Shown here: positions 2,665 to 35,333 of the stretch, in pieces
Layout: each line of letters opens with the position of its first letter
How positions within the stretch are numbered: position 1 is the first letter of the stretch
Source: Candidatus Eiseniibacteriota bacterium
GTDB taxonomy: Bacteria; Eisenbacteria; RBG-16-71-46; JACRLI01
DNA: 49,730 bases
Assembly (NCBI GenBank): GCA_025351485.1
Contig: JANXVU010000087.1
Coordinates: 1-49,730, forward strand
Direction of reading: 5' to 3'
Made by a program: the position numbers and the translations under genes
The notes under the pieces: generated by a model
Told to the model about the DNA's origin: nothing
What the model saw: the letters and a program-made list of their open reading frames with translations, nothing else
The model's database searches: none

Positions 2665-2779
2665 TATTTCATTGAAGTTTCTCAGGCCGCACGAATAGCG
2701 CTCTCCGGCAGCTGCCCGCCCGGGGACCGAGCCCCACACATCTGGCTCGACAATGTTCCGGAATCGGGGAGTCCCCGTC

Positions 2780-5700: not shown

Positions 5701-7048
5701 CCAGGTCCGCAACACCGACAACAAGCTGATTTCCTTCGGCGCACCCACGTCCATCACCATCGACGGCTTCGTCAATATGGGCGAGTGGACGCAGTGCGCC
5801 GTGGCGGTGCGCGACTCCAACGACTCACAGTGGAACTCCGGTCCCGGACTGCACAACAACGAGATCCAGGCGCTGCTGATGAGCATGGACTCCACCTACC
5901 TGTACCTGGCGATCGCCGGGCGGGTGGACCACAATTCCTGGCTGATGTACCTGGACACCGACCCCGGCGGCTCGAACGGGCAGGCCGACCTGAGGGGCAT
6001 CGACACCTGGAACCGCAAGACGCTGTTCACGGCGCCGGGATTCAAGGCAGATTGGGAATACGGCTGCTTCCAGGACCAGGGAGCCTTCGACTCCAACGGG
6101 CTTTGGAAGATCCTTTCTCCCACCACCACCGCCGACTCCAGCTCCAGGGTGCTGCTGGCTTTTGATTCGAACCACGTCTACGGCGACAACGGTGGGAGCG
6201 AGCTGGCCATTCCCTGGAGCGTGCTCTACGGGGTGGGGGCGGGACGCGTCCCGGCCAACGCCAGGATTTCCATCGTGGCCTCGCTGGCCTACAACGGGGC
6301 CTCGGGCCAGCTTGGAGGGGACGTTGCGCCCAATCCGGTGGCCGCCATGGCGCTGCCGACCATCGACAAGGTTTACACATTCACGGTGGACGCTAACGGA
6401 GACGGCTATCCGGACCTGCCCGACCACGTCGCCCCGGTGCTGGCGTCGGCCTCGGCCCCCAACGACACCACGGTGATCGTGACTTTTTCCAAGGTGGTGG
6501 AGCCGGTCAGCGCGGGCACCGCGTCCAACTACGCCATCTACCGCACTTCGACACCGGCGCAGACGGTCACGGTCAAGTCGGCGGTGCGCATCGGCGCGGG
6601 AACCCAGGTGACGCTCACCACGGCGCACCAGATCTACCAGGACTACACCTTGATGGTAAGCGCGGTGAGGGACACCGCGTGCAATCCCAATACGATTGCC
6701 TCGAATTCCAGCGTGGCGTTTGCGGGCTCGCCGGTGGCGGTGGAAGAGCCGCGGAACCCGGGCGTGCTGACCCTGATGCAGAACGCCCCGAATCCGTTCG
6801 GCCGCCTGACGGTGATCCGCTACTATGTGCCGGCCTCGGGCGCGGGCGGCGCGCTGAACCTGTCGGTCTTCGACTCCGGGGGGCGAAGGATCCGGACGCT
6901 GGCGCAGGGCGCGTCCCGATCCGGGGCCGGATTCGCGGAATGGGATGGCCGCGACGAGTCGAGCGCTCGCGCGGGAGCGGGCGTGTACTATTATCGCCTG
7001 AGCTCCGGTGCGGAAAAAGTGATTCGCAAGATGGTGCTCTTGAGGTAG
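2780..7048 (+). CDS. Large secreted GH57-like glycoside hydrolase with CBM9-like, Ig-like and FlgD-like C-terminal modules
   Basis: Predicted extracellular alpha-glucan-active enzyme of about 1,420 residues. I chose the ATG at 2780 over an in-frame ATG at 2753 because GGGGAG lies 8 bases upstream and a clean signal peptide follows (LAALLSLLCIALIPATAASQ). The catalytic region (about 200-640) has AWVPERVW with Glu357, like the nucleophile region of GH57, and TYADDWEM with Asp454/455, where the family places its acid. NLHEEGWHD and DEDGFNELVMYNDRVFAVFE match segments seen in GH57 amylopullulanase-like proteins. The N-terminal HGNQGLAYSD replaces the usual HxHQP, so it is divergent. About 870-990 is an SbsA-like Ig domain, 990-1210 a CBM9-like domain (ITIDGFVNMGEW), then another Ig domain, and 1330-1422 a FlgD-like module ending GVYYYRL. 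The latter suggests type IX-like sorting to the cell surface. First gene of an 11-gene unit; gap to the next gene is 12 bases. Confidence 0.72.
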   Translation: MFPKGPSLPRLAALLSLLCIALIPATAASQSRRYLEDERLLERASWPAAALKALGTVRAGESADEAASNILSFYVTEETGRLALRVGMVQMQSPVDSRDHFARQRVRVLVLMDTRPGGRTDLPEGIEGSSPIEWDSYVELDPAFGGGPASMRGVAGEALEVLPGALARVDSRRDVLSASFELPASLAGRVNPRPQLRGASAPVRYFVISVVGGQIRDRLLAPLGTPVYEANVDFVNHGNQGLAYSDVFHGRSGAESTSGFDDILAMHQNAGVPGNFHVGGLIQTSAQWNYNNGDPYDFNGTLRAGVTAGWAAILTSAYSQHIMPFATDGMNNWSIDREKAMVTYRYNYNARVAWVPERVWLSPTQGPTGGVVDWMGDNFTNHGVDAVILDDNIHGQGYDNHQIHTMAGTGLRVILRDNNFTGKMHAGDGAGALAVLTGLASSGLGTYRLVTYADDWEMAAAMGNWATDMPYAYGTYQYMITKCQTESAWLHAWKLDPALDNPNFNGSPAMNVTYGTYGSIGGTAGYGGSNNAWYTDWAAFVPYVTGGNGSGACDVSRGGNCMNHGSIWNTTQAKLSLAPVNNISESGWYVMMSNLHEEGWHDYLGGPISGWQRNYSAHIKNAKIYAEAARWAGGLYGSATGAYLSDIDEDGFNELVMYNDRVFAVFETAGGRATQIFAKGPAGQNFSIVGSDNAYWSGTEGDFNDANHIAAFSDVGPGYQNDPYNVHVDIGTGNTVQATFDHYGVTKTLKLTLGQPYIDALYSTGGQTQYIQSGWTPDLVDVIYNAQMSRVFVPSRSYVGERNPNTGATGAYVLGSGGATFNKQVTGTVVQGDEIYGSQSFEFYIYAGYASAPDGSGHIAELDSLAAHLTDQIPPQVATATYFPVPRQLSITFTEAVRRSPVVFTGIALDQNNDGVADVTLDNSTVVTNPTDAATLVLTVSPSVGAAISALNHTTLRLLMAAGAAQDVHSNLIAQVRNTDNKLISFGAPTSITIDGFVNMGEWTQCAVAVRDSNDSQWNSGPGLHNNEIQALLMSMDSTYLYLAIAGRVDHNSWLMYLDTDPGGSNGQADLRGIDTWNRKTLFTAPGFKADWEYGCFQDQGAFDSNGLWKILSPTTTADSSSRVLLAFDSNHVYGDNGGSELAIPWSVLYGVGAGRVPANARISIVASLAYNGASGQLGGDVAPNPVAAMALPTIDKVYTFTVDANGDGYPDLPDHVAPVLASASAPNDTTVIVTFSKVVEPVSAGTASNYAIYRTSTPAQTVTVKSAVRIGAGTQVTLTTAHQIYQDYTLMVSAVRDTACNPNTIASNSSVAFAGSPVAVEEPRNPGVLTLMQNAPNPFGRLTVIRYYVPASGAGGALNLSVFDSGGRRIRTLAQGASRSGAGFAEWDGRDESSARAGAGVYYYRLSSGAEKVIRKMVLLR

Positions 7049-7060
7049 TCTCCCTCTCGC

Positions 7061-8485
7061 ATGCCTCAGGCCAAGGGACTAGCCGACTTGATGCGAAACG
7101 CCGACCCAGGATCTCTCGGTGCTGTTGAGCGCACGGGTAAGCTGCTGCCCGGGCGCGGCCTTTGGCAAGTATCGGCGGCCGCCGCGGCACTCGTGGCTTT
7201 GATCGCATTCGCCCCGGCGGCGCGCGGCCAGAGCGAAGTCCACAACGGTGGCCGGATCCGGATCGACGGCTTCTCCGATGATTTCACCGACTCCGAATCG
7301 GTGTTCATGCTCAACACCCGCGTCAGTCCTCCCGTTCTTGAAGAATCCCGCACCGATTCCCGCTGGCAGGACAACGACATTTCCCAGATCAAGTTCACCT
7401 GGGACGCGGACTCCGTTTACATTGCGGCCGACGGCGTGATCAACGGGAACAACATGCTCCTGTTGTTCGACGTCGGCAACCCCGCCCCGGGGATCCTGCA
7501 CGACACCGGGGCACGATTTAACGGGCTCACCAGCATGGCCAACCTCAATTCGTGGCGCAGGAACTTTGTCTTCGACAACGGATTTGCCCCGGACCTCTTC
7601 ATGGCCACCTGGGACGGCAACACCACCCCGAAGCTGCTCACGGTGCAGGGAGCCAACACGGTGCTGGACGAGAGCCCGGCCAATGCCTCCGGCGGCACCG
7701 GGCAGTTCCGGTCGGCGGCGAGCTTTTCGGGGACCAAGCAGGGCTCCATGGAGCTCGCCATTCCGTGGTGGAAGTTCCTGGGCTTCTCTTCCCCGACCGG
7801 CCTGGAGAGGCGCTACATCCCCGAATACCGCGATACCGTCACGGTGCTTCCTCCGGGGGTGCGGTTCATCCGGTTCGCCGGCGTGGTCACTGGCGGTGGA
7901 GACGGCACGGGCGGCCCCGACTCCGCGCCCGACAATCTGCAGGGCCACGAGGTGGACGCGGGCATCCAGGAGACCATCGACAATTTCGCGATCCTCGACC
8001 TGGACACCCTGGACGTGAACGGCCGCCCTGGTCCGGACGGTATCCCCGATTTCAGCCGCAGCGGCGGGGGACGGACGGTCATCGTGCAGCCCAAGTCCCG
8101 CATCACCTTCAAAGTGCAGCCGCCCATCCGGTCGGTGCGGTTCGAGCTCGACAGCCTGGCCTTTTCCCGGCCGTCGTTCGCCCCGTCCCGCCAGCAGCGG
8201 GCCGGCTTCCGTTTCGCCGCCACCTCCCCGGACCTGAGCGGTCCGTCCGATCTTGCGGGACGCAGCGTCACGGTTTCGGCTGCGGTCTACGATATGCGCG
8301 GCCAGCTGGTGCGCAGGATCTACACCAACGACCGGCGCCCGGCGGAGCGGCCCGCGGATGGGAAGGACTCCTGGGATGGCCGGGACGACAATGGATCCCT
8401 GGTGCCGGGGGGGATCTACCTGTTGCGATTGGTCCTGGAACCGGCCCAGTTCCGCAAGCTTGCTCCGATCGTGGTGGTGCGGTGA
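7061..8485 (+). CDS. Secreted CBM9/DOMON-like protein with FlgD-like C-terminus
   Basis: The 474-residue protein has a long N-region and then a hydrophobic export segment (AAAAALVALIAFAPAARGQ, about residues 39-57). GGRIRIDGFSDDFTD and the following FTWDADSVYIAADG are the typical opening strands of CBM9-like carbohydrate-binding domains; the domain runs to about residue 310 and includes SMELAIPWWKF, the usual last strand. The tail (about 370-474) is a FlgD-like Ig module with DSWDGRDDNGSLVPGGIYLLRL. The family often binds sugars, so a role in holding alpha-glucan at the surface is plausible, but no catalytic motif is seen. The start is uncertain: ATG 7061 has only a distant GAGG, and ATG 7091 is an alternative. 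It overlaps the next gene by one base (TGATG), which suggests translational coupling with the PorV-like protein. Confidence 0.68.
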   Translation: MPQAKGLADLMRNADPGSLGAVERTGKLLPGRGLWQVSAAAAALVALIAFAPAARGQSEVHNGGRIRIDGFSDDFTDSESVFMLNTRVSPPVLEESRTDSRWQDNDISQIKFTWDADSVYIAADGVINGNNMLLLFDVGNPAPGILHDTGARFNGLTSMANLNSWRRNFVFDNGFAPDLFMATWDGNTTPKLLTVQGANTVLDESPANASGGTGQFRSAASFSGTKQGSMELAIPWWKFLGFSSPTGLERRYIPEYRDTVTVLPPGVRFIRFAGVVTGGGDGTGGPDSAPDNLQGHEVDAGIQETIDNFAILDLDTLDVNGRPGPDGIPDFSRSGGGRTVIVQPKSRITFKVQPPIRSVRFELDSLAFSRPSFAPSRQQRAGFRFAATSPDLSGPSDLAGRSVTVSAAVYDMRGQLVRRIYTNDRRPAERPADGKDSWDGRDDNGSLVPGGIYLLRLVLEPAQFRKLAPIVVVR

Positions 8486-9402
8486 TGCGGTTGTCTTCGT
8501 TCGCGCTTCGTTCGCGCATCCGGATCGCGGTGGTGGCGCTGGCCCTGGTCGCACTTCTTCCCATGCCCGCCCGGGCCTGGTTCGAAGAAAGCGACGTCGG
8601 CGCCCGCGCGGCCGGTTTCGGTCGCGCCTTTTCGGCGGTGGCCGACGATCCCAGCGCGCTGTACTGGAACCCCGCGGGACTCAGCCGGACCCGGGCCCGG
8701 GACCTGGTGCTGACCTATTCCCGCCCGTATTCCATTTCCGGGCTCACCTCCAATTACGCGGCGGTCGCGATCCCTACCCGATTTGGCGGTGCGGGCTTTT
8801 CGATCCATCACCTGGGAGTCAGCGGCGCGGTGCACGAGGACATGCTGACCCTCGGGGGAGGGCGCGAAGTATTCGGGTCGAGCCACGGCTACAGCGTGGC
8901 CGTGGGCGCGGCGGTCAAGCTGGCCCGGCTGTCCTTTCCTTCCTACACCGATCCGGACAACGGGCAGATCGTGGACTTTGGTTCCACTTCGAAGCTCACC
9001 GGCGATGTGGGAGTTCTGGTGAATGTCCCCGGGAACTGGACCGCGGGGGTGACCTTGCGCAATCTCGGCGCGCCGGAATTCCAGGCGCTTGACGGCGTGG
9101 GCGGAGGGAGCGAGCTGCCCACCATGGCCCAGGCCGGCGTGGCGTTCAAATGGAATCCGGAGTCGACCGTGGCCTTCGATTACCAGCAGAACCGCAAGGG
9201 CAAGGGGATCTTCAACCTCGGCGGGGAAATATGGTTCTACGATTCCTTCGCCATCCGCGCGGCCATCACCAGCGCGGATGCGGGCGGGGGATTCAGCATC
9301 AAGGCGCGGCATTTCAAACTGGAGATGGCGTTCCTCACCAACGAGCCGCTGGGGGCGTCCTACCGCGTCGGGCTGAACGTCCCACTGGGGACCTCCAAGT
9401 GA
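8485..9402 (+). CDS. PorV/UPF0164-type outer-membrane beta-barrel protein
   Basis: The 305-residue protein begins at the ATG overlapping the previous stop. It has a signal peptide (IRIAVVALALVALLPMPARA) followed by GARAAGFGRAFSAVADDPSA and LYWNPAGLS, the hallmark of the PorV/PorQ/UPF0164 family (FadL-like barrels). The remainder is alternating amphipathic strands, as expected of an outer-membrane barrel. In Bacteroidota, PorV (LptO) escorts proteins carrying type IX C-terminal domains to the surface attachment complex. Here it directly follows a protein with such a C-terminal module, and a second such pair exists at 43343-49638. Role as a sorting partner is inference from family and context. 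It overlaps the next gene by four bases. Confidence 0.78.
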   Translation: MRLSSFALRSRIRIAVVALALVALLPMPARAWFEESDVGARAAGFGRAFSAVADDPSALYWNPAGLSRTRARDLVLTYSRPYSISGLTSNYAAVAIPTRFGGAGFSIHHLGVSGAVHEDMLTLGGGREVFGSSHGYSVAVGAAVKLARLSFPSYTDPDNGQIVDFGSTSKLTGDVGVLVNVPGNWTAGVTLRNLGAPEFQALDGVGGGSELPTMAQAGVAFKWNPESTVAFDYQQNRKGKGIFNLGGEIWFYDSFAIRAAITSADAGGGFSIKARHFKLEMAFLTNEPLGASYRVGLNVPLGTSK

Positions 9403-10958
9403 GGCCGGGCTCGGTGCGGTCCCGCGCAGCCCGAACCTTGGCGCTGGCCGCGCTCGGGCTGTGCCTGGGAGGCGTTCCGTCCCCGGCGGACACCGTGCTC
9501 AGCGGCGAGTACAACGTCCAGATCGATCTGCGCAAGCAGGACCGGAACTACGATTGGAACTTCGACTCCAACAACAGCGACACCTACAGCAACGCCCAGC
9601 TGCGCCTGTTCAGCCAGCCGTTTACCGGAGTGGAGGCGTTCATCAAGACCGAGGCCGATTGGCATCCCTCGGACAACAACACTTCCCGTCCGCTGTTCCA
9701 GTTCCGCGAGGCGGATCTACGCTACCGCTGGGACCTGGGGGGCAAGGGGTTCGACAGCTATCTATTCTCCCGGCAGAACCGGTTCTGGGTCGAGAACCAT
9801 CTGATCCAGGTGGTCCAGAGCGATCCGCCCTCCGACGGGGGCAACGCGCAGGGATTCCGCGTGGACTCCTGGGGTTTCCTCGGTGGGCTCAACGGGACCT
9901 TCATTTACAGCGACTACAGTAGCCAGTTCGATCCCACGGGAACGAACAAGAACCCGCTCAAGACCGACGACGCGGTGATCGTGCGGCTGCGCGACGAATT
10001 CCTGGAGCGCAAGCTCCGCGCGGGGTTCACCTACAACCGCAAGATCGAAAACCAGATCAACGAAGGCCCCAATGCCGCGGCCTCGGTCATCGCGGGGGAT
10101 CTGCGCTACACCCTGCGCAACGTCGAACTCTCGCTGGAATACGCCCAGAGCGTCACCGACAGCACCCGCCAGTTTCCGTCTCCTTCGGTCAGTTTTCCGG
10201 ACGCCCTCGACCAAAAGTTCCTGGGAATTCCGCTCAGCGACCGGGGCGTGTGGGTGGGTGAAATCCGTTCCATTCAGGTGGGCTCGGCCTCGCTGGGCTA
10301 CATCAACTTCGCCCCGGTGGGATGGCTTCGGGGACCCAAGTTCGACAATCGCCTGGGCGATTCCAACCGCGACGAGCGTGGCTACACCATCAACACGTGG
10401 TACCTGGTGCCCGGCCGCGCAATCACGCTGTCGAATAATCTCACCCGGTACGAAAAGAAGGCCACCATCCGGCGCAAGGTGACCGAGCTCTACAGCGAGG
10501 CCTACATCGAGTTCGTGAACGGTTTCACCGGAAAGGTGTTCTACCGCAACAAGCGCACGACGGATGACCCGGGCCTCCTCACCGAGCGCGTGGACAAGAA
10601 CGACGATCTCTTCGGGGAGGTCCAGGTCGAGAGCAAGCTGGCGTGGCTGCGGGTGGAAGGAAAGCTCAAGAACCTGGGGACGCGGAACGAAAAACAGCTC
10701 GCGTCCATCGAAACCAGCGTCAACATCGGAACGCAGACGAAGTTGTACAACCGCCTCATGTTCGGAAATGATCCGACCGGGCTGCGACGCATCCTGTTCA
10801 GCCAGATCCAGTACCGGCCGGCGGGCAACATGGATTTCTTCCTGGAGTACGGACCCAGCTGGATCGGGGACTCCCAGAGGCCCGTCGACGACGGCGACCT
10901 CGAGGGCAGCGGAGTGCAGAAGGACCTGATCAAGCTCTTCGTGAAGGGCACATTCTGA
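9399..10958 (+). CDS. Putative outer-membrane beta-barrel (porin-like) protein, no recognised family
   Basis: The start is the GTG at 9399, which overlaps the previous stop (GTGA) and gives a clean signal peptide (TLALAALGLCLGGVPSPA). The 519-residue product is rich in alternating polar/aromatic strands (for example YNVQIDLRKQDRNYDWNFD), has no internal hydrophobic helix, and ends in phenylalanine (KLFVKGTF), the classic C-terminal signature of BAM-inserted barrels. I do not recognise a named family. It resembles large porin-like barrels used for oligosaccharide passage. It is translationally coupled on both sides, upstream to the PorV-like gene and downstream to the CBM48 barrel by TGATG, so it may form a two-barrel uptake unit with the latter. 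Confidence 0.65.
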   Translation: MRPGSVRSRAARTLALAALGLCLGGVPSPADTVLSGEYNVQIDLRKQDRNYDWNFDSNNSDTYSNAQLRLFSQPFTGVEAFIKTEADWHPSDNNTSRPLFQFREADLRYRWDLGGKGFDSYLFSRQNRFWVENHLIQVVQSDPPSDGGNAQGFRVDSWGFLGGLNGTFIYSDYSSQFDPTGTNKNPLKTDDAVIVRLRDEFLERKLRAGFTYNRKIENQINEGPNAAASVIAGDLRYTLRNVELSLEYAQSVTDSTRQFPSPSVSFPDALDQKFLGIPLSDRGVWVGEIRSIQVGSASLGYINFAPVGWLRGPKFDNRLGDSNRDERGYTINTWYLVPGRAITLSNNLTRYEKKATIRRKVTELYSEAYIEFVNGFTGKVFYRNKRTTDDPGLLTERVDKNDDLFGEVQVESKLAWLRVEGKLKNLGTRNEKQLASIETSVNIGTQTKLYNRLMFGNDPTGLRRILFSQIQYRPAGNMDFFLEYGPSWIGDSQRPVDDGDLEGSGVQKDLIKLFVKGTF

Positions 10959-13120
10959 TGAGAACGAACTTGGGACGCCGGCGCCTGGCCGCCGGGATCG
11001 TACTGCTTTTCCTCATGGCCTGGTCCCCTCCGCGGGCCTCGGCCGAGGTTTCCTCCGTGGACGGCGGGATCAAGTTCACCTATCGGAACGCCAATGCGAA
11101 AAGCGTGAGCTGGGCCGGCGCGTTCAACAACTGGAGCGCCACCGCCAATCCGATGACCCGGGACGGAGACGTCTGGTCCGTCGTGCTCCCGCTCAAGTCC
11201 GGCGAGCAACAGTACAAGTTCGTCGTGGACGGTCAGTGGGTGGCCGATCCGGAAAATCCGGTGACCGGCGGGGACTTCGGTAACTCAATGGTCAAGGTCG
11301 CCTCGGACGGCAAGCTGGCGGTCATGACGGCAACCTCCAATACCGCGATGAATCCCAAGGTGTACCTGGGCGGGAGGTTCATCACCAAGTACATCTCGCG
11401 CAAGGTGGACGCCGACAGCGGCCGGCTGGAACTGGGGCGCCCCGACTTCAACCTGGACCTGGACTTCAAGATCCGGATGAACGATGTGCTCGACGCCCAC
11501 ATGCTGGTGAACATCGAGAGTGAAAACGAGAACGTGCAGTTCTTTCGCACCCGGCTCAATTTCGACCGGGGTTCGCTGCACCTGCACTCGGAGGCGCTGG
11601 AGCTATTCGGCTTCGACAACGATTCGCTGGGAACCTGGGAGGACCCGCTCCACCTGGTGGGGAATATCGGAATCTATCACCACGCCTTCGGCTTTGCGCA
11701 GCAGGGGGTGGAGGCGCTCAAGGACTTCGGGGACTTCAAGGCGCGGGCGCTGTATTCCGACAACTTCCGGCCGGGGGGCACCAGCCGGCCGAGCGCCCTG
11801 AATCTGACTCTTCCGATTGTCCAGTTGGCGTCCGGTCCCAGCCTGACCGCGAACACATCGCAGGTCTACGACCGCACCTTCGGGGACAACGCCAAGAACA
11901 TCTTCGCCGCGCGGGTGACGCGGGACGCGGGAAAGGAGTGGTGGTTCGGGGTGAGTGGCAGGCTGGACCGGGGCCAAAACCCCGGCCTGGTGGTGATCTT
12001 CGAGCCGGGGGGCACCGATTCGGCCGGCCGGCGCACGGGAGGGGTTCTGACCAGCGGCAACACGGTGGAGCGCTGGTGGGCCGTGGGCGCCGACGCCCGC
12101 TACAAGCAACCGACCTGGGAGTTCGCGGGGGAGTACCTCAAGGGGCGCAACGACCTCATGTACGTCGGGGACGGTTCAGTATTCCAGCTCAACTTCACCC
12201 CTCCGGATACCAGCAGGCTGGTGGTTCCCTTGAGCCGCAAGCCCAGCTCGCCCCGGCTGGCCGACGACAGCCGCGCTACCCTCCAGTGGAGCGGGCGGCT
12301 CGACGAGTCCCTCCGGCTCAGCGCGGGCGTGCAGTTGCACCGCAATCATGTCGCTGCCCTGGGGAGCGACAGCCTGCTTAGCCTGGCCGACTCGCTGGTG
12401 CCCGCAAGCGACTTCACCAATACCCGCATGACCTGGTCCGCCTCGGCGCGGAAAGAGTGGCTATGCAGCTCCGGCAAGCGCCTGACGGCCTCCCTGGGGC
12501 TGGTCTACGATCACTTCGACTACGACGCGCACACGCCCTGGCTGCACCAGTTCTGGTTCGACCGCCACAATTTCTGGCTGGACGCGGGCGAGCACCAGGT
12601 GAGCTTTGACAAGCTGACCCTGCTGGGCGGCAACAACGTCGTCAGCTGGAGGCCTTCGGTCGCCGCGGATGTCTGGACCAAAGGCGAGGTCAAGGTGCGC
12701 TGGCAGGGCACGTTCAATGGTGTTTCCATGAGCACCCGGCCCAAGTACATGGAAAACCTGTTCCAGGCCACGACCCGGCTAGGGTCCCGCACCCACGCGC
12801 TGTGGGACGTGCGGTGGGCCAAGTATGACGATCCGCTCCTGGACCTGGGGCACGGATACGTGGACCACTTCATCCGCTTATCCTACGACTTCACCCCGGG
12901 CATCACCATCCAGGCCGGCTGGGGGGTGGATCCGGACGTCCTGGATCCTCCGGTGAACGAGTACGCGCCGATCGGCCGCGATCTGTTCCTGTTCGGCCAG
13001 GGGGCCAACGGAAGCGTGGCGCAGGACAATTACCGCGGGTTGGCGAAGGCCATCCCGGCCGCGGAGCTGGCGCTTGAATCGGAACGCCGGGTGCAGCTCC
13101 AGGCGATCGTGAGGTTCTAG
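10958..13120 (+). CDS. Outer-membrane beta-barrel with N-terminal CBM48 glycogen-binding domain
   Basis: The 720-residue protein has a signal peptide (AAGIVLLFLMAWSPPRASA). Residues about 33-112 match the AMPK-beta-type glycogen-binding domain (CBM48): SWAGAFNNWS carries the aromatic sugar platform and QQYKFVVDGQWVADPEN is the conserved second half. The rest (about 125-720) is barrel-like, with strands such as DFNLDLDFKIRMND, and ends in VQLQAIVRF with the terminal phenylalanine of outer-membrane proteins. The simplest reading is a porin that binds alpha-1,4-glucan through its periplasmic or extracellular N-terminal domain and passes the products. The topology of the CBM48 domain cannot be decided from sequence. 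No SusC-type plug or TonB box is recognisable. It overlaps the preceding barrel gene by one base and is one base from the next gene. Confidence 0.72.
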   Translation: MRTNLGRRRLAAGIVLLFLMAWSPPRASAEVSSVDGGIKFTYRNANAKSVSWAGAFNNWSATANPMTRDGDVWSVVLPLKSGEQQYKFVVDGQWVADPENPVTGGDFGNSMVKVASDGKLAVMTATSNTAMNPKVYLGGRFITKYISRKVDADSGRLELGRPDFNLDLDFKIRMNDVLDAHMLVNIESENENVQFFRTRLNFDRGSLHLHSEALELFGFDNDSLGTWEDPLHLVGNIGIYHHAFGFAQQGVEALKDFGDFKARALYSDNFRPGGTSRPSALNLTLPIVQLASGPSLTANTSQVYDRTFGDNAKNIFAARVTRDAGKEWWFGVSGRLDRGQNPGLVVIFEPGGTDSAGRRTGGVLTSGNTVERWWAVGADARYKQPTWEFAGEYLKGRNDLMYVGDGSVFQLNFTPPDTSRLVVPLSRKPSSPRLADDSRATLQWSGRLDESLRLSAGVQLHRNHVAALGSDSLLSLADSLVPASDFTNTRMTWSASARKEWLCSSGKRLTASLGLVYDHFDYDAHTPWLHQFWFDRHNFWLDAGEHQVSFDKLTLLGGNNVVSWRPSVAADVWTKGEVKVRWQGTFNGVSMSTRPKYMENLFQATTRLGSRTHALWDVRWAKYDDPLLDLGHGYVDHFIRLSYDFTPGITIQAGWGVDPDVLDPPVNEYAPIGRDLFLFGQGANGSVAQDNYRGLAKAIPAAELALESERRVQLQAIVRF

Positions 13121-13121
13121 C

Positions 13122-13544
13122 ATGAAGCCTTTCTTTGGCGGCAGGGCCCTGGCGGCCCGCGGATCCCTGGGCCTGGTCGCGGTGGCGCTCCTGGTCACCT
13201 CGTGTTCCTCGCTCAGCTTCATCAAGCGGCGGCTTCCCCCTCCGTCCCAGTCGGACCAGGGCGTTGTGTTTCAGTTTGAGGCCCCCTCGGCCAGGGTGGT
13301 GCAGCTCATGGGCAGCTGGCCCGAGAACAACTGGGGCTCGGGCCAGGCGCAGACGGGTTCCTACCGAATCGGGGAGATGGTCCGGGGCGAAGACGGCGTG
13401 TGGAAACGCACGGAAAAACTTCCGCCTGGACGCTACCAGTACAAGTTCAAGGTCGATGAATTGAATTGGAAGGAAGACCCCAATAACCCGCAGCGGGCTG
13501 ACGACGGGTTCGGCGGCTTCAATTCCCTGCTCGTGGTGAACTAG
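13122..13544 (+). CDS. Lipoprotein with a single CBM48-like glycogen-binding domain
   Basis: The 140-residue protein has a lipoprotein signal ending in a lipobox (LLVTSC, Cys28). Almost all the mature part is one CBM48-like domain: VVQLMGSWPENNWGSG corresponds to the first aromatic site and GRYQYKFKVDELNWKEDPNN to the second half. No enzyme domain is present. It is likely an outer-membrane-anchored alpha-glucan-binding protein, a possible functional counterpart of SusE/SusF, although unrelated in sequence as far as can be seen. It is one base downstream of the CBM48 barrel gene and is part of the same transcription unit. Confidence 0.75.
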   Translation: MKPFFGGRALAARGSLGLVAVALLVTSCSSLSFIKRRLPPPSQSDQGVVFQFEAPSARVVQLMGSWPENNWGSGQAQTGSYRIGEMVRGEDGVWKRTEKLPPGRYQYKFKVDELNWKEDPNNPQRADDGFGGFNSLLVVN

Positions 13545-13593
13545 GAAACGGGGAGCCATGATGCCCGCCTCGCATCGATTCCGGGAGAACGCC

Positions 13594-15456
13594 ATGTTGA
13601 AGACGAGCCGCAGGCTGATGTTGGGGATGGTCTGGGTGACGGCCGGGCTGTTGCTCGCGCAGTTGGGGTGCGACCGCGCACCAGGAAAGCTGCTGCTGGA
13701 TCCCGGTGGCAGCGCCGGAGGCGCGGGATACAAGTCGAAGTTCACCAGGATCCAGGTGGCCGGCAACCTTAACCCGACGCTCTACGGGAATTTCGATCTC
13801 ACCAAGTCTCCGGACATGGCGAACCAGGGCAACGGGGTGTGGACGGCGGTGGTAAAGGGTGTCGCCGCCGGGGATCACCTGTTCAAGTTCGTCACCAACG
13901 GGAAATTCGACGATCCCCCGGACTACGGATCGGACGAGGTTTGCCGGCCCTCCACGTCCGGGGCGGTCATCCCGGTCACGGGCCAGGGCACGGCCATCTG
14001 CGTGACCTTCGCGGCGGCCGGCAACTACAAGGTGACCCTGGACGAGCAGACGCTCAAGTTCAAGTTCGAGCCTTACACCGTGGCCACACCGGGCACGATC
14101 GCGGGCACGGTGACCTTTGAAAACCCGCCGCCGTCGCCGCTCAAGGCGGCCGTGACGGTGCTGACTGCCGGAACCCAGACCGTGCAGGCCGCGGACAGCA
14201 CCGAGAGCAACGGCAGTTTCTCCATCGGCGACCTGCCCGAGGGGAGCTACGACGTGCGCTTTGCGGCCTCCGGCTACCTGGACTCGCTCAAGACGAACGT
14301 GCAGGTCGCGGCGGGCCAGACGGTCAACATCGGCACGATCCGGCTGGCCAAGGGCTGCACTTCGGCGTTCAGCAAGATCCAGGTCGCGGGCAACTTGAAC
14401 ACCGACCTGTACGGCAACTTCGACCTGACCAAGTCGCCGGAGCTTCAGAAGGTCGCGGGTTGCAGGTGGGAGACCACCATCAACACCGTGACGGCGGGCC
14501 AGCACTTCCTGAAGCTGGTCACCAACGGCGCGTTCGACAATCCCAAGGACTACGGCGGCGAAGAGTCCAACTGCCTCACCCTGAGCGCCGGGTTCATCAG
14601 TGCGCCGGTGAAGCAGGTCTCCGGCACCGGCACGGCGCTGTGCATCAACTTCCCCGAGGCCGGGAACTACAAGTTCACCCTGGATGAGGATGCGCTCACG
14701 CTCCGGATCGAAAAGACGGTGGTGTTGCAGGGAGGCACGTTGCACGGAGAGGTGGCCTTCGGCGGGACGCCGCCTCGCGGCTTGCATGCGGCGGTGACGG
14801 TGCTGCAGCAGGGGACCTCCACCGTGGTGGCGGCCGACAGCGCCACGCCGGAATTCATCCTGAACGGCATTCCGGCCGGCCAGTACGACGTGAAGTTCGC
14901 GGCCGTGGGATACCTGGACACGCTCCGCTCCGCCGTGATCGCCGTGGGCCAGATCACCGAGCTGGGCACGGTCCAGATGCGCGCGGGGTGCACTTCGGCC
15001 TTCAACAAGATCCAGATCGCCGGAAACCTGAACACCGACAAGTACGGCAACTTTGATCTGACCCGGGCGCCGGAACTGACCAAGATGGGCGGGTGCAGAT
15101 GGCAGGCGACGGTCGACAGCGTCCTCTCCGGCCAGCACTTCTTCAAGCTGGTGACGAACGGGGCGTTTGATAGTCCGCCGGACTACGGCGGCGACGAGAG
15201 CAACTGCCTCACGCTCACCGCCGGTACGCTGAACACAACGGTCCGACCGGCAAGCGGAACGGGGACGGCGCTCTGCGTGACGTTCCCCGACGCCGGAAAG
15301 TACAAGTTCACGCTCGACGAAGCCGCCCGGACGCTCCTGATTGAAAAGGTCACGTCCGCGGCCTCGCGTATCCAGACCATCAAGCTCGGGCTCCGTCCGG
15401 AAAATTCGGCCGGCGCCGGGAGCGAAGGTATCGTTTCCACAGGAGGCTCCCGATGA
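13594..15456 (+). CDS. Probable lipoprotein with alternating carbohydrate-binding-like (A) and carboxypeptidase-regulatory-like (B) repeats, A-B-A-B-A
   Basis: I chose the ATG at 13594 because GGGAG lies six bases upstream and the signal sequence then starts normally (MLKTSRRLMLGMVW, Cys26). ATG 13558 or 13561 are in-frame alternatives. The QLGC lipobox is imperfect. The mature protein has three copies of a roughly 110-residue unit A (13736-14080, 14360-14710, 14990-15350), each opening FxKIQVAGNLN and containing GNFDLTKSPE, a Cys pair in the middle, and GNYKxTLDE at its end. They alternate with two copies of unit B (14090-14350, 14735-14985), which look like carboxypeptidase regulatory (CnaB-like) domains with GSYDVRFAASGYLD. 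Unit A resembles CBM20/CBM48 sandwiches. A spaced multivalent glucan binder at the surface is my inference. It overlaps the next gene by four bases. Confidence 0.68.
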   Translation: MLKTSRRLMLGMVWVTAGLLLAQLGCDRAPGKLLLDPGGSAGGAGYKSKFTRIQVAGNLNPTLYGNFDLTKSPDMANQGNGVWTAVVKGVAAGDHLFKFVTNGKFDDPPDYGSDEVCRPSTSGAVIPVTGQGTAICVTFAAAGNYKVTLDEQTLKFKFEPYTVATPGTIAGTVTFENPPPSPLKAAVTVLTAGTQTVQAADSTESNGSFSIGDLPEGSYDVRFAASGYLDSLKTNVQVAAGQTVNIGTIRLAKGCTSAFSKIQVAGNLNTDLYGNFDLTKSPELQKVAGCRWETTINTVTAGQHFLKLVTNGAFDNPKDYGGEESNCLTLSAGFISAPVKQVSGTGTALCINFPEAGNYKFTLDEDALTLRIEKTVVLQGGTLHGEVAFGGTPPRGLHAAVTVLQQGTSTVVAADSATPEFILNGIPAGQYDVKFAAVGYLDTLRSAVIAVGQITELGTVQMRAGCTSAFNKIQIAGNLNTDKYGNFDLTRAPELTKMGGCRWQATVDSVLSGQHFFKLVTNGAFDSPPDYGGDESNCLTLTAGTLNTTVRPASGTGTALCVTFPDAGKYKFTLDEAARTLLIEKVTSAASRIQTIKLGLRPENSAGAGSEGIVSTGGSR

Positions 15457-16046
15457 AGCGCTTCATGAGCGTGGCACTGGCCGCGCTGTTCACCATTGCC
15501 CTGATGCCCGTGCTCTCCTTTGCCCAGGAGGGGGCCAAGCTGACCACCCTCAAGGCCACCAAGTTCCTGCTCGTGGCCGAAGCGGGCAATGGCCGCAAGC
15601 TGACGGCCACGCTCACCTCCGAGGGCAAGACATGGGTCCTCGCGGCCGACGATATCCATCTCAAGCTGGGGGACGGTGGGATCATCATGGTGGAGGCGCT
15701 CAATGCGTTGCTCGGGGAGCTCAAGGCCCCGGTGGTGGGAGCTCCGGTCAAGGTGGAGGGCGGGTGGCGCTTCTCGATCTCCAACGACGCCGCCAAGGCC
15801 GCCCTGGGCAAGGACCCGGGCACGGTCAGCCTGGCAGGCGAATTCAACGCTTGGAACTCGGGCGACCCGAACTACGCGCTGAAGCTGGCGGACGGAGTGT
15901 GGTCCATCACCGTTCCGCTCCAGCCGGGCAAGTACCAGTACAAGTTCGTCCTGGACGGCGGCGCGAAGTGGAAGGAAGATCCAAGCAATAAGGACACCAT
16001 GGATGACCACAACGGCGGCCTGAACACGATCGTGACAGTGCCGTGA
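15453..16046 (+). CDS. Exported protein with C-terminal CBM48 glycogen-binding domain
   Basis: The 197-residue protein has a strong ribosome-binding site (AGGAGG, 15441-15446) and a signal peptide (FMSVALAALFTIALMPVLSFA). Residues about 27-105 contain repeated small strands with no recognised family. Residues about 112-197 are a clear CBM48 domain: VSLAGEFNAWNSGD and KYQYKFVLDGGAKWKEDPSN. It has no lipobox cysteine, so it is probably periplasmic or secreted. It overlaps the lipoprotein gene upstream and the MalE-like gene downstream by four bases each, so it may deliver bound oligosaccharide to the importer, which is inference. Confidence 0.74.
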   Translation: MKRFMSVALAALFTIALMPVLSFAQEGAKLTTLKATKFLLVAEAGNGRKLTATLTSEGKTWVLAADDIHLKLGDGGIIMVEALNALLGELKAPVVGAPVKVEGGWRFSISNDAAKAALGKDPGTVSLAGEFNAWNSGDPNYALKLADGVWSITVPLQPGKYQYKFVLDGGAKWKEDPSNKDTMDDHNGGLNTIVTVP

Positions 16047-17308
16047 GGCAGGCGATCCCGATGCCCTCGTCGACCATGTTGCGCGGGCTGGCCGGCCTGG
16101 TGCTTCTCGCGCTGTGCGTGGGCGCCGTGTCCGGCTGCTCCGGCAAGAAGAAGGAGATGCGCATCAGCATCTTCGAGCAGATGGACCCGCCGGAGCGTGT
16201 CCAGCTCGAACGGCATCTGGAGGCCTACCGGAAGCTCCACCCGGAGCTGGTCATCACCCACCAGAACTATGAAACCGACGCGCTCCGGCAGCAGTTCCAG
16301 ACCGCCGCCAACGCCGGTGGAGGTCCCGACATCGTGTTCGGCCCTTCGGACCAGATCGGTCCGTTCTCGGTGATGGGGCTGATCCTGCCGCTCGAGGACG
16401 TGCTGGGCAAGGACTACTACGCGGGCTTCGAGCCGGGCAGCCTGGACACCCTGGGCGGGCATTTGTACTACGCGCCGGACCAGCTGGGCAACCATCTGAT
16501 GCTGCTCTACAACAAGAAGCTGACCACCAAGGTCCCGGCGACCACCGACGAGTGGATCGCGGAGGCGAAGCGGCTCACGAAAGACACCAACGGCGACGGC
16601 ACGCCCGACCAGTACGGGATCGTGATGAACCTGGTGGAACCCTTCTGGCTGGCGCCGTTCCTGAACGGCTACGGCGGGTGGGTGATGGACGCGAAGCACC
16701 AGCCGACGCTGGACAGCCCGGGCATGGTGGGCGCCCTGAAGTTCCTGTCCTCGCTCCGAAACCAGAACCTCATGCCGCGCGAGTGCAACTACGCCGTCGC
16801 GGACAACCTGTTCAAGGAGGGCAAGGCGGCCTATCTGGTCAACGGACCATGGTCCTGGACCGCCTACAAAGCCTCCGGCATCGACCTCGGGATCGCGCCC
16901 CTTCCCAAGGCGGCCGCCACGGGTCGCTGGTGCGGCCCGATGACCGCCTCCAAGGGCTACTCCGTCAGCAAGAGCTCTCCGATGGAGATGCGCCCGGAAG
17001 TGGTGGCCCTGGTCAAGTACCTCACCAGCCCCGAGGTCGGGGTGGACAACGCCGACTCCCTGGGCACGCTTCCCAGCATGACCGCGGCCTACGCCGACCC
17101 CCGCGTCTCGGGAAACCCTTTCCTGGCCGCTTCGCGGGCCGCCTACGCCCTGGGCCGCCGGATGCCGGTGGTGCCGGAAATGCGCGCCATTTGGGACGCC
17201 ATGCGCCCTGAAATGGAGAAAGTGCTGAGCGGGGCGGAAACCCCCGAGGCGGCCTCCAAGGCCATGCAGGCGGGCGCGATCAAGCAGATCCAGACCATGA
17301 AGGACTAG
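16043..17308 (+). CDS. malE: ABC transporter substrate-binding lipoprotein, maltooligosaccharide type (MalE-like)
   Basis: The 421-residue protein belongs to the family 1 extracellular solute-binding proteins. The start is the GTG at 16043 overlapping the previous stop; ATG 16061 is an alternative. A lipobox (AVSGC, about Cys33) predicts membrane anchoring. The mature protein opens with MRISIFEQMDPPERVQLERH and carries GGGPDIVFGPSDQIGPF and AAYLVNGPWSWTAYKASGID, patterns typical of maltose/maltodextrin-binding proteins. The neighbouring alpha-glucan genes support maltodextrin as substrate. The two permease genes follow 8 bases downstream. Confidence 0.86.
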   Translation: MRQAIPMPSSTMLRGLAGLVLLALCVGAVSGCSGKKKEMRISIFEQMDPPERVQLERHLEAYRKLHPELVITHQNYETDALRQQFQTAANAGGGPDIVFGPSDQIGPFSVMGLILPLEDVLGKDYYAGFEPGSLDTLGGHLYYAPDQLGNHLMLLYNKKLTTKVPATTDEWIAEAKRLTKDTNGDGTPDQYGIVMNLVEPFWLAPFLNGYGGWVMDAKHQPTLDSPGMVGALKFLSSLRNQNLMPRECNYAVADNLFKEGKAAYLVNGPWSWTAYKASGIDLGIAPLPKAAATGRWCGPMTASKGYSVSKSSPMEMRPEVVALVKYLTSPEVGVDNADSLGTLPSMTAAYADPRVSGNPFLAASRAAYALGRRMPVVPEMRAIWDAMRPEMEKVLSGAETPEAASKAMQAGAIKQIQTMKD

Positions 17309-17316
17309 GGAAGACC

Positions 17317-18207
17317 GTGGGCTCCGGCCGGCGTCCCTACCGGTTCTTTCCGTACCTGATGGTCCTGCCCGCCATGGCCGTCATGGTGGCGGTGGTGTTC
17401 TATCCGCTGCTCTACAACTTCAGCCTGGCCACGCGGAACATGAGCCTGTACCACTTCCAGTCCTCGCAGTTCGTGGGCCTGAAGAACTTCATCGCGATCT
17501 TCTCCGACCACACCTTCTACGGCGTCTTCCTGAAGACGGTGATCTGGACCGTGGCCAACCTGGTCTTCCACGTCCTGTTCGGCGTGACCTTGGGGCTCCT
17601 GCTGGACCGGCCGCTGCCGGGGCGAGCGGTCCTAAGGGCGCTGCTCATCCTGCCGTGGGCCGTTCCCCAGTACATCAGCGCGCTCACCTGGCGGGGCATG
17701 TTCGACTACGAGTACGGCGCCATCAACCTGATCCTCAAGAACGCGTTGCACCTGATGCCGATTCCGTGGCTCTCCAACGCCACCTGGGCCTTCATCGCCC
17801 CGGTGATCACCAACGTGTGGCTGGGATTTCCGTTCATGATGATCGTTACGCTGGGAGGGTTGCAGAGCATTCCGGCGGAGCTCTACGAGGCGGCCGACCT
17901 GGACGGGGCCAGCCCGTGGACCAAGCTCACCCGCATCACGCTGCCAGGGCTGTGGCCGGTGCTGGCACCGTCCATTCTGTTGGGGACGGTGTGGACCTTC
18001 AACAACCTGAACGTGATCTGGCTGGTCACCGACGGGGGACGCCCGGCCGACCAGACCCACATCCTGACCACCTATATCTACAAGGCCGCCTTCGCCTATT
18101 ACCGCTACAGCTATGCGGCGGCGTTCTCGGTCATCGTGTTCCTGATCCTGCTGGGCTTCACCATCGCCTTCATGCGGTCCCTGAAGGGGCAGGAGGCGCG
18201 GGCATGA
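17317..18207 (+). CDS. malF: Maltodextrin-type ABC transporter permease (MalF-like)
   Basis: The 296-residue inner-membrane protein starts at GTG 17317 and has six predicted membrane helices, beginning FFPYLMVLPAMAVMVAVVF. The cytoplasmic EAA loop that docks the ATPase is present (EAADLDGASPWTKLTRITLP). It is shorter than E. coli MalF, which has an extra periplasmic domain; the short form is usual outside enterobacteria. It overlaps malG by four bases. Confidence 0.9.
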   Translation: MGSGRRPYRFFPYLMVLPAMAVMVAVVFYPLLYNFSLATRNMSLYHFQSSQFVGLKNFIAIFSDHTFYGVFLKTVIWTVANLVFHVLFGVTLGLLLDRPLPGRAVLRALLILPWAVPQYISALTWRGMFDYEYGAINLILKNALHLMPIPWLSNATWAFIAPVITNVWLGFPFMMIVTLGGLQSIPAELYEAADLDGASPWTKLTRITLPGLWPVLAPSILLGTVWTFNNLNVIWLVTDGGRPADQTHILTTYIYKAAFAYYRYSYAAAFSVIVFLILLGFTIAFMRSLKGQEARA

Positions 18208-19052
18208 GCGGATTCGGAGGCAGGAAGAAACTCGGGACCGGCGACCTGCTCGCCTATGCGATCCTGGTCACGTTCGCGGTGGCGGCCGTCTACCCGGTGC
18301 TCCAGATCTTCAGCATCTCGCTGCGGCCGGGCGATCGGCTTTACTCCACGTCGCTCGCGATCATCCCGCAGGACGCCACGTTCAAGGCCTATCACACCAT
18401 CCTGTTCGACCGGCCGTTCGGATTGTGGCTTCGCAACAGCCTGCTGCTTTCGGCTTCGGTCACGCTGGTGAGCATCGCGCTGGCCTCCACCGCGGGCTAT
18501 GCATTCTCGCGCTACCGGTTCCGGGGACACCGGGAGGGGATGTATTCGTTCCTGATGACCCAGATGTTTCCGGCGACCATGCTGCTGCTGCCGCTGTACG
18601 TGCTGTTCCGCCAGCTGCAGCTGCTGGATTCGTTCATCGGCCTGGGAGTGGCCTACGTGGCCACTTCGCTGCCATTCTGCGTGTGGACCATGAAGGGCTA
18701 CTACGACACCCTGCCGCGGGACCTGGAGGAGGCGGCGCTCCTGGACGGGATGAACCCGTGGGGGGCGTTCATGGTGGTGGTGCTGCCGCTGGCGGCGCCC
18801 GCGCTGGCCATCACGGCCCTGTTTTCGTTCATGGCCAGCTGGTCGGAGTTCATCGTGGCCCGGGTGATCCTGAGCCGGCCCAACCTGTTCACCCTGCCCC
18901 TTGGACTGGCCAGCCTGGCCGGGACCTTCCAGACCGAATGGGCCAACTATGCGGCCGGCAGCCTGTTAGTGTGCCTGCCCGTGGTGGTGCTGTTCATCGC
19001 TTTGAACCGGCTGCTGATTTCCGGGCTCACCCTGGGTGGGGTCAAGGGGTAA
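18204..19052 (+). CDS. malG: Maltodextrin-type ABC transporter permease (MalG-like)
   Basis: The 282-residue protein starts at the ATG overlapping the malF stop. It has six predicted helices and the EAA loop (LEEAALLDGMNPWGAFMVVV), and ends with the usual GLTLGGVKG tail. It pairs with MalF to form the channel. No MalK/MsmX-type ATPase gene occurs in the window, so the energising subunit must be encoded elsewhere and may be shared. Last gene of the alpha-glucan unit. No clear hairpin terminator follows; the next promoter begins 22 bases later. Confidence 0.9.
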   Translation: MSGFGGRKKLGTGDLLAYAILVTFAVAAVYPVLQIFSISLRPGDRLYSTSLAIIPQDATFKAYHTILFDRPFGLWLRNSLLLSASVTLVSIALASTAGYAFSRYRFRGHREGMYSFLMTQMFPATMLLLPLYVLFRQLQLLDSFIGLGVAYVATSLPFCVWTMKGYYDTLPRDLEEAALLDGMNPWGAFMVVVLPLAAPALAITALFSFMASWSEFIVARVILSRPNLFTLPLGLASLAGTFQTEWANYAAGSLLVCLPVVVLFIALNRLLISGLTLGGVKG

Positions 19053-19102: not shown

Positions 19103-19202
19103 CATTATGGTCATGGCCGAACGGAAGCTCTTCCCAAACATCACGCGCCACAACCCAACGGGCCGGCCACGTCCCGCGCGGCGCATGCGAGGTACAGTTC
19201 CG

Positions 19203-21323
19203 ATGAAACGTCTATCGATCGTCTCGTTTGCGTGTTCGCTCGTCCTGCTGCTGGCCCTGGCGCCGCGCCCGTCGCACGCGATTCCCTACAACCACGTGAA
19301 CGCCGACGGGATCTGGGGAGTGGGGGAATGGGACGTCTCGGCGGAGCGCCGGTGCGTCAACACCACCACGCCGTACGGTGCCAACGATGGAAACGTCCAG
19401 TCCATCCTGGTGACGTGGGACCACGACAGCCTCTACATCGGCGTCGAAGGCAACACCTGGAACAACGCCGAGCTGATCTACATCGACTCCGACGGCATCA
19501 CCTCCGCGCCTTACAACAAGGACTTCTTCAAGGGCTTCACCACTCCGGGCTGGAACCCTGACTTCGTCTTCGGCGCGTACAACATGCAGTACGGGGACGT
19601 GATCGGGGGTAACCCGCAGTTCCGCAAGATCAACGCCGACAGTTCGACCAGCGTGTTTGCCAGCGTGCGCTACGGCGTGAAGGACAAGAACTCCGATGGC
19701 GGGCACCTGACGGGGCTGGTGGAAATAGCCATTCCCTGGTCGGTACTGGGCGTGCACCCGGGCGGCCGCATCAAGGTGGCGGCCGGAACCGGGTTTGCCA
19801 GCGTGAAGACCCCGCACGTGGATCCTGCGGGTGGCCTGGGAGGCGAATCGGGTGATGAGCTCTGCGGCACCGACCAGGTGGGCGGGACCGATGCGATTTC
19901 GTCCACCCTGGACACCCCGGCGAGCGTCAACTACGACCTGAACCTGGACGGCGTCCCCGACTCCTACCTGGACAGCACGCCGCCGTTCGTGCTCTCCGCC
20001 TCGTCCAATTCGCCCGCGCCAAACTACACCGGCGCGCACAACCAGGTGCTGGTGTCCTTCAGCGAGATCGTCAAGAAGGCGACCGTGGAGGTGCCCTCGA
20101 ACTACACCCTGCAGCACGCTCTTGGATTCGCGGTTCCCGCCACGGCGGTCCGCCAGGCGGACAGCTCCACGGTGCTGCTTACGTTTGTCTCCCCGATCAC
20201 CCTGGGATTCACCAACAAGTTGACCGTCACCGGCGTACAGGACCGGGCCGGCAACACGATCCTGGCCAACGGGACCGCCAACGTCGGCTGCTTCTGCATC
20301 CGGCGGCTGGTGCTCCGGGCCAACATGTCGCTGCACCTGCGCACCGATTCACCGGCCGACTCGTTCGTGGTGATCGGCAACACCTTGCCGCTGGACTTCT
20401 CCAACGTGTGCAAGATCAAGCTGAACGACAGCGGAACGAACGGCGATGCGACGGCCGGCGACAGCATCTGGAGCACCACCATCGACTTCTCGCGCTCGCA
20501 GGTGTGCGGCGCGGGCCCCGACACCACCACGCTGGAATACGAGTTCAACCACCGCTGCTCCGAGTACGAGGGCCTGCACCACGTGTTCGCGATGACCTGC
20601 GGGAACGCGGTCGACACGTTGAACACTTTCTGGAAGGACATCTCCCCGGCCGACTACACCACGCATGCCATCGACGTGGTGTTCAAGGTGGACGCCTACA
20701 CCGAGCCGGGCCAGCGGATCTCGATCGACGGGTCCCAGCAGCCGCTGAGCTGGAGCTCCCCGTCGCCGACCCACCTGCGCAACGACGGGGTGGCCCCGGA
20801 TTCTTCGGCCAACGACAAGCGCTGGAGCGGCAAGTACCGCTTCCCGAAGGGCACGCTCAGGAACGTGGACTTCAAGTACCTGATCGACGACACCACCTAT
20901 GAGTGTGGCGGCAATCGCAACGTGGTGCTCAATGACGCCCTGTTCGACACCACCGGCAGCGTCCTGGGGCCCCTGGTGATCACTCCGGTCGGCATCTTCG
21001 GGCAGAACTGCGCCACCGCCACAGGGGTCGGCCGGCCTCCGGTCATGGCGCCGCGGCTGTTCCCGAATCGCCCGAACCCGTTCGGGCGGAGCACCGAGAT
21101 CGGTTTCCGGGCGCCCGTCTCCGCGGACGTAGACGTGTCGATCTACGACATGTCGGGCAGGCACCTGCGCACCCTGATGAAGGGGCGGGTTGCCGCCGGC
21201 GAGCAGCGGGTCACCTGGGATGGCCGGGACAACAGCGGCCGGAGGCTCCCGAGCGGAGTCTATTTCTACCAGCTGACCTCGGGCGGGTTCAGTGAGCAGC
21301 GCCGCATGTTGCTGGTGCATTAG
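19203..21323 (+). CDS. Secreted multi-domain protein: CBM9-like, Ig-like, two starch-binding-like modules, FlgD-like C-terminus
   Basis: I chose ATG 19203 because CGAGGT ends nine bases upstream, a signal peptide follows directly (LSIVSFACSLVLLLALAP), and the more upstream ATG (19107) sits on the predicted transcript start. The product is about 706 residues. Residues 22-230 are CBM9-like, opening VNADGIWGVGEW and closing LVEIAIPWSVLG. About 250-360 is an SbsA-type Ig domain (VLVSFSEIVKKATVEVPSNY). About 362-470 and 485-600 resemble CBM20-type sandwiches (IGNTLPLDF; ISIDGSQQPLSW, KYRFPKGTL). The end is a FlgD-like module (NRPNPFGRSTEIGF to VTWDGRDNSGRRLPSG). No catalytic residues are recognised. 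It is probably a surface carbohydrate-binding protein exported by a type IX-like route. Several cysteine pairs suggest disulfides. Confidence 0.7.
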   Translation: MKRLSIVSFACSLVLLLALAPRPSHAIPYNHVNADGIWGVGEWDVSAERRCVNTTTPYGANDGNVQSILVTWDHDSLYIGVEGNTWNNAELIYIDSDGITSAPYNKDFFKGFTTPGWNPDFVFGAYNMQYGDVIGGNPQFRKINADSSTSVFASVRYGVKDKNSDGGHLTGLVEIAIPWSVLGVHPGGRIKVAAGTGFASVKTPHVDPAGGLGGESGDELCGTDQVGGTDAISSTLDTPASVNYDLNLDGVPDSYLDSTPPFVLSASSNSPAPNYTGAHNQVLVSFSEIVKKATVEVPSNYTLQHALGFAVPATAVRQADSSTVLLTFVSPITLGFTNKLTVTGVQDRAGNTILANGTANVGCFCIRRLVLRANMSLHLRTDSPADSFVVIGNTLPLDFSNVCKIKLNDSGTNGDATAGDSIWSTTIDFSRSQVCGAGPDTTTLEYEFNHRCSEYEGLHHVFAMTCGNAVDTLNTFWKDISPADYTTHAIDVVFKVDAYTEPGQRISIDGSQQPLSWSSPSPTHLRNDGVAPDSSANDKRWSGKYRFPKGTLRNVDFKYLIDDTTYECGGNRNVVLNDALFDTTGSVLGPLVITPVGIFGQNCATATGVGRPPVMAPRLFPNRPNPFGRSTEIGFRAPVSADVDVSIYDMSGRHLRTLMKGRVAAGEQRVTWDGRDNSGRRLPSGVYFYQLTSGGFSEQRRMLLVH

Positions 21324-26455: not shown

Positions 26456-26505
26456 CCCGCCGAGGCAGTTTGGATGCCATTTATCTTATTCCGCAAGGAG
26501 TTGGA

Positions 26506-27471: not shown

Positions 27472-27489
27472 CCGGTCGGCGAAGGACCC

Positions 27490-29148: not shown

Positions 29149-29151
29149 GAT

Positions 29152-31184: not shown

Positions 31185-31193
31185 GGGGACGCC

Positions 31194-32159: not shown

Positions 32160-32236
32160 TTCCGAAGGCCCCGGAAGTGGCCAGCATGATTCCCTTCAAT
32201 TCCAGAATGACCCAGGGCGAGCTCTGGACGGCAGAC

Positions 32237-32279
32237 ACCCGGACGGTTGCAGTCTCGAGCCGCCCGGGTTCTGAGTTTT
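32237..32279 (+). terminator. Possible attenuator or weak terminator inside the exopolysaccharide operon
   Basis: Arms 32237-32248 (ACCCGGACGGTT) and 32258-32269 (AGCCGCCCGGGT) pair with one mismatch and one G-T pair around a 9-base loop, and TTTT occurs at 32276-32279 after seven intervening bases. The T run is displaced, so termination would be partial. It lies in the only sizeable gap of the operon. Confidence 0.35.
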
Positions 32280-32352
32280 GGGAGGCTGGGCCTCTGCGCC
32301 CTGCCGGGGAGCCCGCGCGCCGCGCGATGGATCTTCGGACGGACGCCCGCCG

Positions 32353-35308: not shown

Positions 35309-35333
35309 CCCTGGCCGATCGGAATCGAGAGCG

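Follow-up and report, generated by a model that had tools for sequence, protein, structure and literature searches.

SusE and SusF of Bacteroides thetaiotaomicron are surface lipoproteins that carry several tandem X25 modules each, and belong to a starch-uptake cluster with an outer-membrane barrel. X25 modules (PF22058) are also found in Sca5 and Sas20 of R. bromii and in the pullulanase of Bacillus acidopullulyticus (BaPul). In Sca5 the tryptophans W620 and W661 contact maltotriose, alanine changes of the equivalent tryptophans of Sas20 abolish maltotriose binding, single X25 lobes from Sca5 did not bind by themselves, and the lobes of these proteins pair into one cleft with four tryptophans (PMC9112005). 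Further described modules are the CBM69 starch-binding domain of AmyP, which is a single module on an amylase, and the CBM48 of the AMPK beta subunit.

Here we describe a repeat protein encoded in a 49,730-nt stretch of DNA from a Candidatus Eiseniibacteriota bacterium (the whole stretch is called the window below), in which three modules of type A alternate with two spacers of type B. It shares with SusE and SusF the fold, the presence of several modules in one lipoprotein and a cluster that includes a predicted outer-membrane barrel, but sequence identity is only ~10–13%, and it differs in having B spacers, probable disulfides and phenylalanine in place of both platform tryptophans. Moreover, SusD (PF07980, PF14322) was not found in 13 genomes, while the Bacteroides control was positive. 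The fold and the two platform columns are likewise shared with Sca5, Sas20 and the BaPul X25, whereas the window modules are separated by B spacers and have Phe. AmyP CBM69 was the best full-length profile match and shares the aromatic columns, while AMPK beta/CBM48 belongs to the same superfamily, a relationship that profile comparison picks up along the first half of unit A; unit A is however longer by ~40 residues, differs in its second half, and is separable from the CBM48 units of the locus.

Layout of the repeat protein and identity of unit A

The repeat protein is encoded by a single 632-residue ORF (13558..15456, + strand) with an N-terminal signal, the units A1-B1-A2-B2-A3 and a short C-terminal tail, and the in-frame Met13 at 13594 is a plausible alternative start. 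A probable lipoprotein signal extends from Met13 to the putatively lipidated Cys38 (...TAGLLLAQLGC-DRAP; 13594..13671, +), and is followed on the same strand by A1 (residues 55–175, 13720..14082), B1 (176–265, 14083..14352), A2 (266–388, 14353..14721), B2 (389–476, 14722..14985) and A3 (477–599, 14986..15354). A2 and A3 are identical at 86/123 residues (70%), and A1 is ~51–53% identical to either (60/118 with A2, 63/118 with A3). The repeats are also visible in the DNA, with a 286-nt repeat at 75% (14306 vs 14939), a 90-nt block in three copies (13725, 14352 and 14985), a 62-nt block also in three copies, and a spacing of 627–642 nt. The alternating layout with three near-copies proposed in the initial annotation is thus borne out by one ORF with both DNA and protein repeats, although the A units measure 121–123 residues, not the ~110 given there. 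The two spacers had been described as CnaB- or carboxypeptidase-regulatory-like, and both B units (CnaB/prealbumin fold) indeed match PF13620 CarboxypepD_reg (two stretches, E 1.4e-15, 57.8 bits with a cut-off of 32.3).

With regard to unit A, X25_BaPul_like (PF22058) scored 28.3 bits (cut-off 27) when summed over the whole window protein, and no single window unit exceeded any Pfam carbohydrate cut-off. Among 26 related units, Pfam matches were to X25 (9/26, E 0.1), AMPK1_CBM (7), CBM48 (5), CBM20 (1) and SusF_SusE (1), with the CBM20, CBM48 and AMPK1_CBM matches being weak. A unit-A profile built from 26 members from the same phylum matched the AMPK CBM (E 1e-4), AmyP CBM69 (E 4e-4) and Sca5 X25 (E 3e-3), and more weakly the BaPul pullulanase (E 0.03) and SusF (E 0.17), while hhalign gave 98% for unit A versus the CBM48 units of the locus. 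Several other assignments were rejected: CBM20 (PF00686 has no match in the window protein), CBM48/AMPK1_CBM (neither PF02922 nor PF16561 matches it), and THSD1_N (PF24306), which was judged spurious with 27.3 bits against a cut-off of 27 when summed over the repeats, a best stretch of 29 residues and 14.4 bits for A2 alone. The top profile matches, the 'Bagel' proteins 8prj and 8pra, were also discarded as sums of many 5-bit repeats in which no single stretch was significant. Single-sequence PDB searches with the units of loci L037 and L035 were at chance level, apart from weak matches to AmyP and to BT3088 SGBPdex.

The AlphaFold2 model of A2 (pLDDT 97.2, pTM 0.90) is a beta-sandwich of ~120 residues with the topology of SusF and Sca5, as expected for the X25/SusE-SusF fold. 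Foldseek searches of the PDB returned SusF (4fe9, probability 1.00) as best match, followed by Sca5 X25-2 (7rpy, probability 1.00, TMq 0.68) and by alpha-amylase accessory domains. While the E-values of the best two are borderline (1.5e-3 and 1.9e-3, respectively), the first eight matches are all starch-related with probabilities of 0.99–1.00, and later ones do not exceed 0.25. SusF was again the best PDB match of the whole-protein model (E 2.5e-8), which also matched CnaB-type pilins, but the pTM of this model is low (0.31), and the domain arrangement was therefore not interpreted. The confident A2 model, with starch-related matches far ahead of the rest, predicts that unit A is an X25/SusE-SusF-like module and as such represents a divergent branch within a known superfamily. 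The carbohydrate-binding type originally suggested for unit A is hence supported by the X25, CBM69 and AMPK-type CBM48 profiles and by the structural matches to SusF and Sca5, and the HMM searches did not place unit A clearly in any non-carbohydrate family. The described likeness to CBM20/48 without an exact match was right in spirit, but nearer named relatives exist in X25/SusE-SusF (PF22058) and AmyP CBM69. Similarly, the idea of a new carbohydrate-binding family agrees with single units falling below the Pfam carbohydrate cut-offs, but a branch of a known superfamily is not a new kind of module.

Platform sites, cysteines and age of the copies

Profile alignment to 7rpy placed the two conserved aromatic columns of unit A at chain positions 143 and 184, which by our own count correspond to W620 and W661 of Sca5 in the published numbering, with a fitting spacing of 41. 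Both columns hold Trp in 32/46 A units and Phe in 7/46, and the residue at one site varies with that at the other (Fisher p 5e-6 among the 46 units, uncorrected for kinship). The seven Phe/Phe units are the three window copies (F79 and F117 in A1, F288 and F326 in A2, F499 and F537 in A3), all three units of relative G012 and one of G028. As the paired platform tryptophans are absent from all three window copies, with Phe instead, these are X25-like rather than canonical X25. They also have five extra residues (TDLYG type) inserted ahead of site 1. This replacement, together with the inability of lone Sca5 X25 lobes to bind, suggests that the affinity of the A units may be low.

The paired cysteines mentioned in the initial annotation are present, with four each in A2 (C267, C302, C339, C362) and A3 (C478, C513, C550, C573) and two in A1 (C129, C148), which lacks the first pair. 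This pair, C1 and C2 (C267 and C302 in A2), is complete in 27 units and absent from 16, with C2 alone in three (Fisher p 1e-9, uncorrected for kinship), and the total number of cysteines is even in most A units, a pattern that fits two disulfides per unit A, in line with the disulfide-bearing units of the initial annotation.

The similarity of adjacent DNA copies had been taken as a sign of recent duplication, which is refuted by a codon comparison between A2 and A3. At codon positions 1+2 the agreement is 80%. At shared four-fold sites it drops to 43% (35 codons), little more than the ~41% that third-position composition would give, and synonymous sites are thus saturated. This indicates that the A2/A3 similarity is held by selection and that the duplication is old. 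When 46 A units were placed in one tree, those of the window grouped together as a separate clade (97/96) with the units of G012 nearest, so the expansion is lineage-specific, yet old. A recent block duplication was seen in G008, where a homologue of 1498 residues (L035:8670-13163, − strand) has six A units, two of them nearly identical.

Gene order in the window and in relatives

Five nearly gapless genes precede the repeat gene, all on the + strand. The first, with which the run conserved in relatives also opens, encodes a 474-aa protein with a weak FlgD-like C-terminus (7061..8485), followed by a PorV-like outer-membrane protein (TraF_2/FadL-like, 8482..9402; family matches and conserved order), a 519-aa probable beta-barrel ending in Phe (9399..10958; sequence and conserved order), a 720-aa protein with an N-terminal AMPK-type CBM48 (PF16561, E 3e-14), a probable beta-barrel and, by alignment, an invariant C-terminal Phe (10958..13120), and a 140-aa probable lipoprotein with one AMPK-type CBM48 (13122..13544; PF16561, E 1.2e-7). 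The 720-aa protein, for which no PDB match was found beyond the CBM, is a candidate outer-membrane glucan channel. Downstream, again on the + strand, there are genes for a 197-aa secreted protein with a C-terminal AMPK-type CBM48 (15453..16046; PF16561, E 4.9e-11), a MalE-like sugar-binding lipoprotein (16043..17308; PF13416, E 2.4e-29), a MalF-like permease (17317..18207; PF00528, E 4.6e-17) and a MalG-like permease (18188..19052, within the reading frame 17655-19052; assigned from its position after MalF and homologues in relatives). The MalE-like protein scores 124.8 bits with NCBIfam MalE, below the cut-off of 291, and also matches GanS. Next is a 738-aa secreted protein (19107..21323, +) with a CBM20 (PF00686, E 2.1e-7) and a C-terminal T9SS-type sorting domain (TIGR04183, 34.3 bits, cut-off 23), which suggests type IX-like secretion in this phylum.

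Elsewhere in the window there is a putative esterase with an N-terminal CBM20 (1428-2606), homologues of which lie near the locus in several relatives, and a 1431-residue protein with a FlgD-like tail (2753-7048) that has neither a Pfam catalytic domain nor a PDB match; its homologues are encoded close to the locus in some relatives (42% identity in L066). An exopolysaccharide cluster (26470-39711) contains genes for Poly_export, Wzz, ParA-like, UDP-sugar dehydrogenase, flippase, Wzy and glycosyltransferase proteins. There is no GH13 gene within the window, but the same genome has a GH13 with CBM48/X25 modules on another contig (C38).

The CBM48-barrel, the small CBM48 lipoprotein and the A-unit protein are encoded on one strand and in identical order in ~20 distinct relatives (18 of these in named records). 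Most are Eisenbacteria, and a few carry the labels Gemmatimonadota, Krumholzibacteriota, Hydrothermota and WOR-3. The conserved run reads PorV-like protein, beta-barrel, CBM48 beta-barrel, small CBM48 lipoprotein, A/B lipoprotein, CBM48 protein(s), MalEFG and, in relatives, a GH13 amylase, and MalE/MalF homologues are near the locus in many relatives. GH13 enzymes with CBM48/X25 modules adjoin it in G022, G028 and G029, and are located within ~10 kb in G002, G004 and G008. Homologues of the 720-aa barrel occur across the Eisenbacteria, with remoter ones labelled Cloacimonadota, Krumholzibacteriota, Latescibacterota and others; on the genome contigs the whole-protein scan gave no match and the OMP profile scan gave matches. 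In one relative a TonB receptor is encoded some kb upstream of the locus. Unit A is also found in other proteins, such as a GH53 endo-galactanase of G002 with a C-terminal A unit (L034:7742-9610, −) and an FG-GAP repeat protein of G008 with an A unit before its FlgD-like tail (L041:6615-10412, +). A search of the open-licence literature found no paper on this locus.

A putative glucan-capturing lipoprotein and its alternatives

We consider it likely, with a probability of about 0.66, that the repeat protein is a surface-anchored lipoprotein that captures alpha-glucans with X25-type units on spacers, and feeds the barrel and MalEFG. The Phe/Phe platform of each A unit would stack against the maltooligosaccharide turns in starch, glycogen or pullulan, and the B spacers would keep the three weak A sites apart and off the membrane, allowing multivalent binding. 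Captured chains may then be cut by a GH13 amylase or neopullulanase (whose gene lies next to the locus in relatives but on a different contig in this genome), would cross the outer membrane via the CBM48-tipped beta-barrel encoded two genes upstream, and would be imported by the MalEFG-like ABC system encoded downstream. The repeat protein is thus best read as a counterpart of SusE/SusF in a system that is analogous to Sus but apparently has no SusD. The repeat layout, the fold (a confident prediction with structural matches), the correspondence of the two aromatic sites to the Sca5 tryptophans and the conserved gene order are established computationally, while ligand, surface location, spacer function and transport route are inferred. 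Besides the replaced tryptophans, points against this reading are the single window units below the Pfam carbohydrate cut-offs, the borderline PDB E-values of the A2 model, the lack of a GH13 gene in the window and the atypical lipobox.

The fusion of unit A to a GH53 galactanase in one relative indicates that the ligand need not be an alpha-glucan everywhere, and the window units may have kept the X25 fold but switched to another ligand, e.g. beta-1,4-galactan or the bacterium's own exopolysaccharide, with the Trp-to-Phe changes and the five-residue insert marking the new specificity. While the joint change to Phe, which the window units share with those of G012 and one of G028, the exopolysaccharide cluster from ~26470 and the GanS match of a MalE-like protein that stays under the MalE cut-off are all consistent with such a switch, we regard it as unlikely, since neighbouring genes encode CBM48 and CBM20 starch modules, GH13 enzymes are present in relatives, and the GH53-borne unit itself has Trp, not Phe, at both sites.

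It is less probable again that the A units are structural, with sugar binding lost and the chain spacing or stabilising a surface complex. Such a role could explain the loss of both tryptophans from all window copies, as well as short homologues in G019, G021 and G023 in which the first site is altered and site 2 is Ser, but aromatic character is retained at both window sites. Together with the conservation of codon positions 1+2 despite synonymous saturation, this argues for a maintained function of the A units.

The lipobox of the window copy is atypical and weak (LAQLGC, with Gln at −3), and is canonical in most relatives. Charged residues come shortly after the cysteine in relatives (CDES, CEDA, CAKEE). 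Asp after the lipid cysteine is a signal for inner-membrane retention in E. coli. An orientation towards the periplasm or inner membrane, in which the protein passes maltodextrins to MalE instead of capturing polymers outside, would suit the Asp next to the predicted lipid cysteine and the MalEFG genes directly downstream, but is very improbable given that the charged residues in relatives resemble the surface-export signals of Bacteroidota, and that disulfides and a long, spaced layout suit an exposed protein.

An unannotated protein of an uncultured, poorly studied phylum thereby gains a named fold, binding residues that can be tested and a genomic setting, and the X25-like modules with Trp/Trp and Phe/Phe sites form a natural set for the effect of the platform on affinity and specificity. 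The conserved locus is more interesting than the repeat protein alone, as it suggests a way in which starch or glycogen may be captured and imported by bacteria that lack SusD. We tentatively propose, at somewhat less than even odds, that an outer-membrane system for alpha-glucans, free of SusC and SusD, is common to Eisenbacteria and neighbouring phyla, consisting of a CBM48-tipped barrel, a small CBM48 lipoprotein, a multi-module X25-like lipoprotein (Phe-Phe here) and MalEFG, which if true would be an independent solution to the capture and import of starch.
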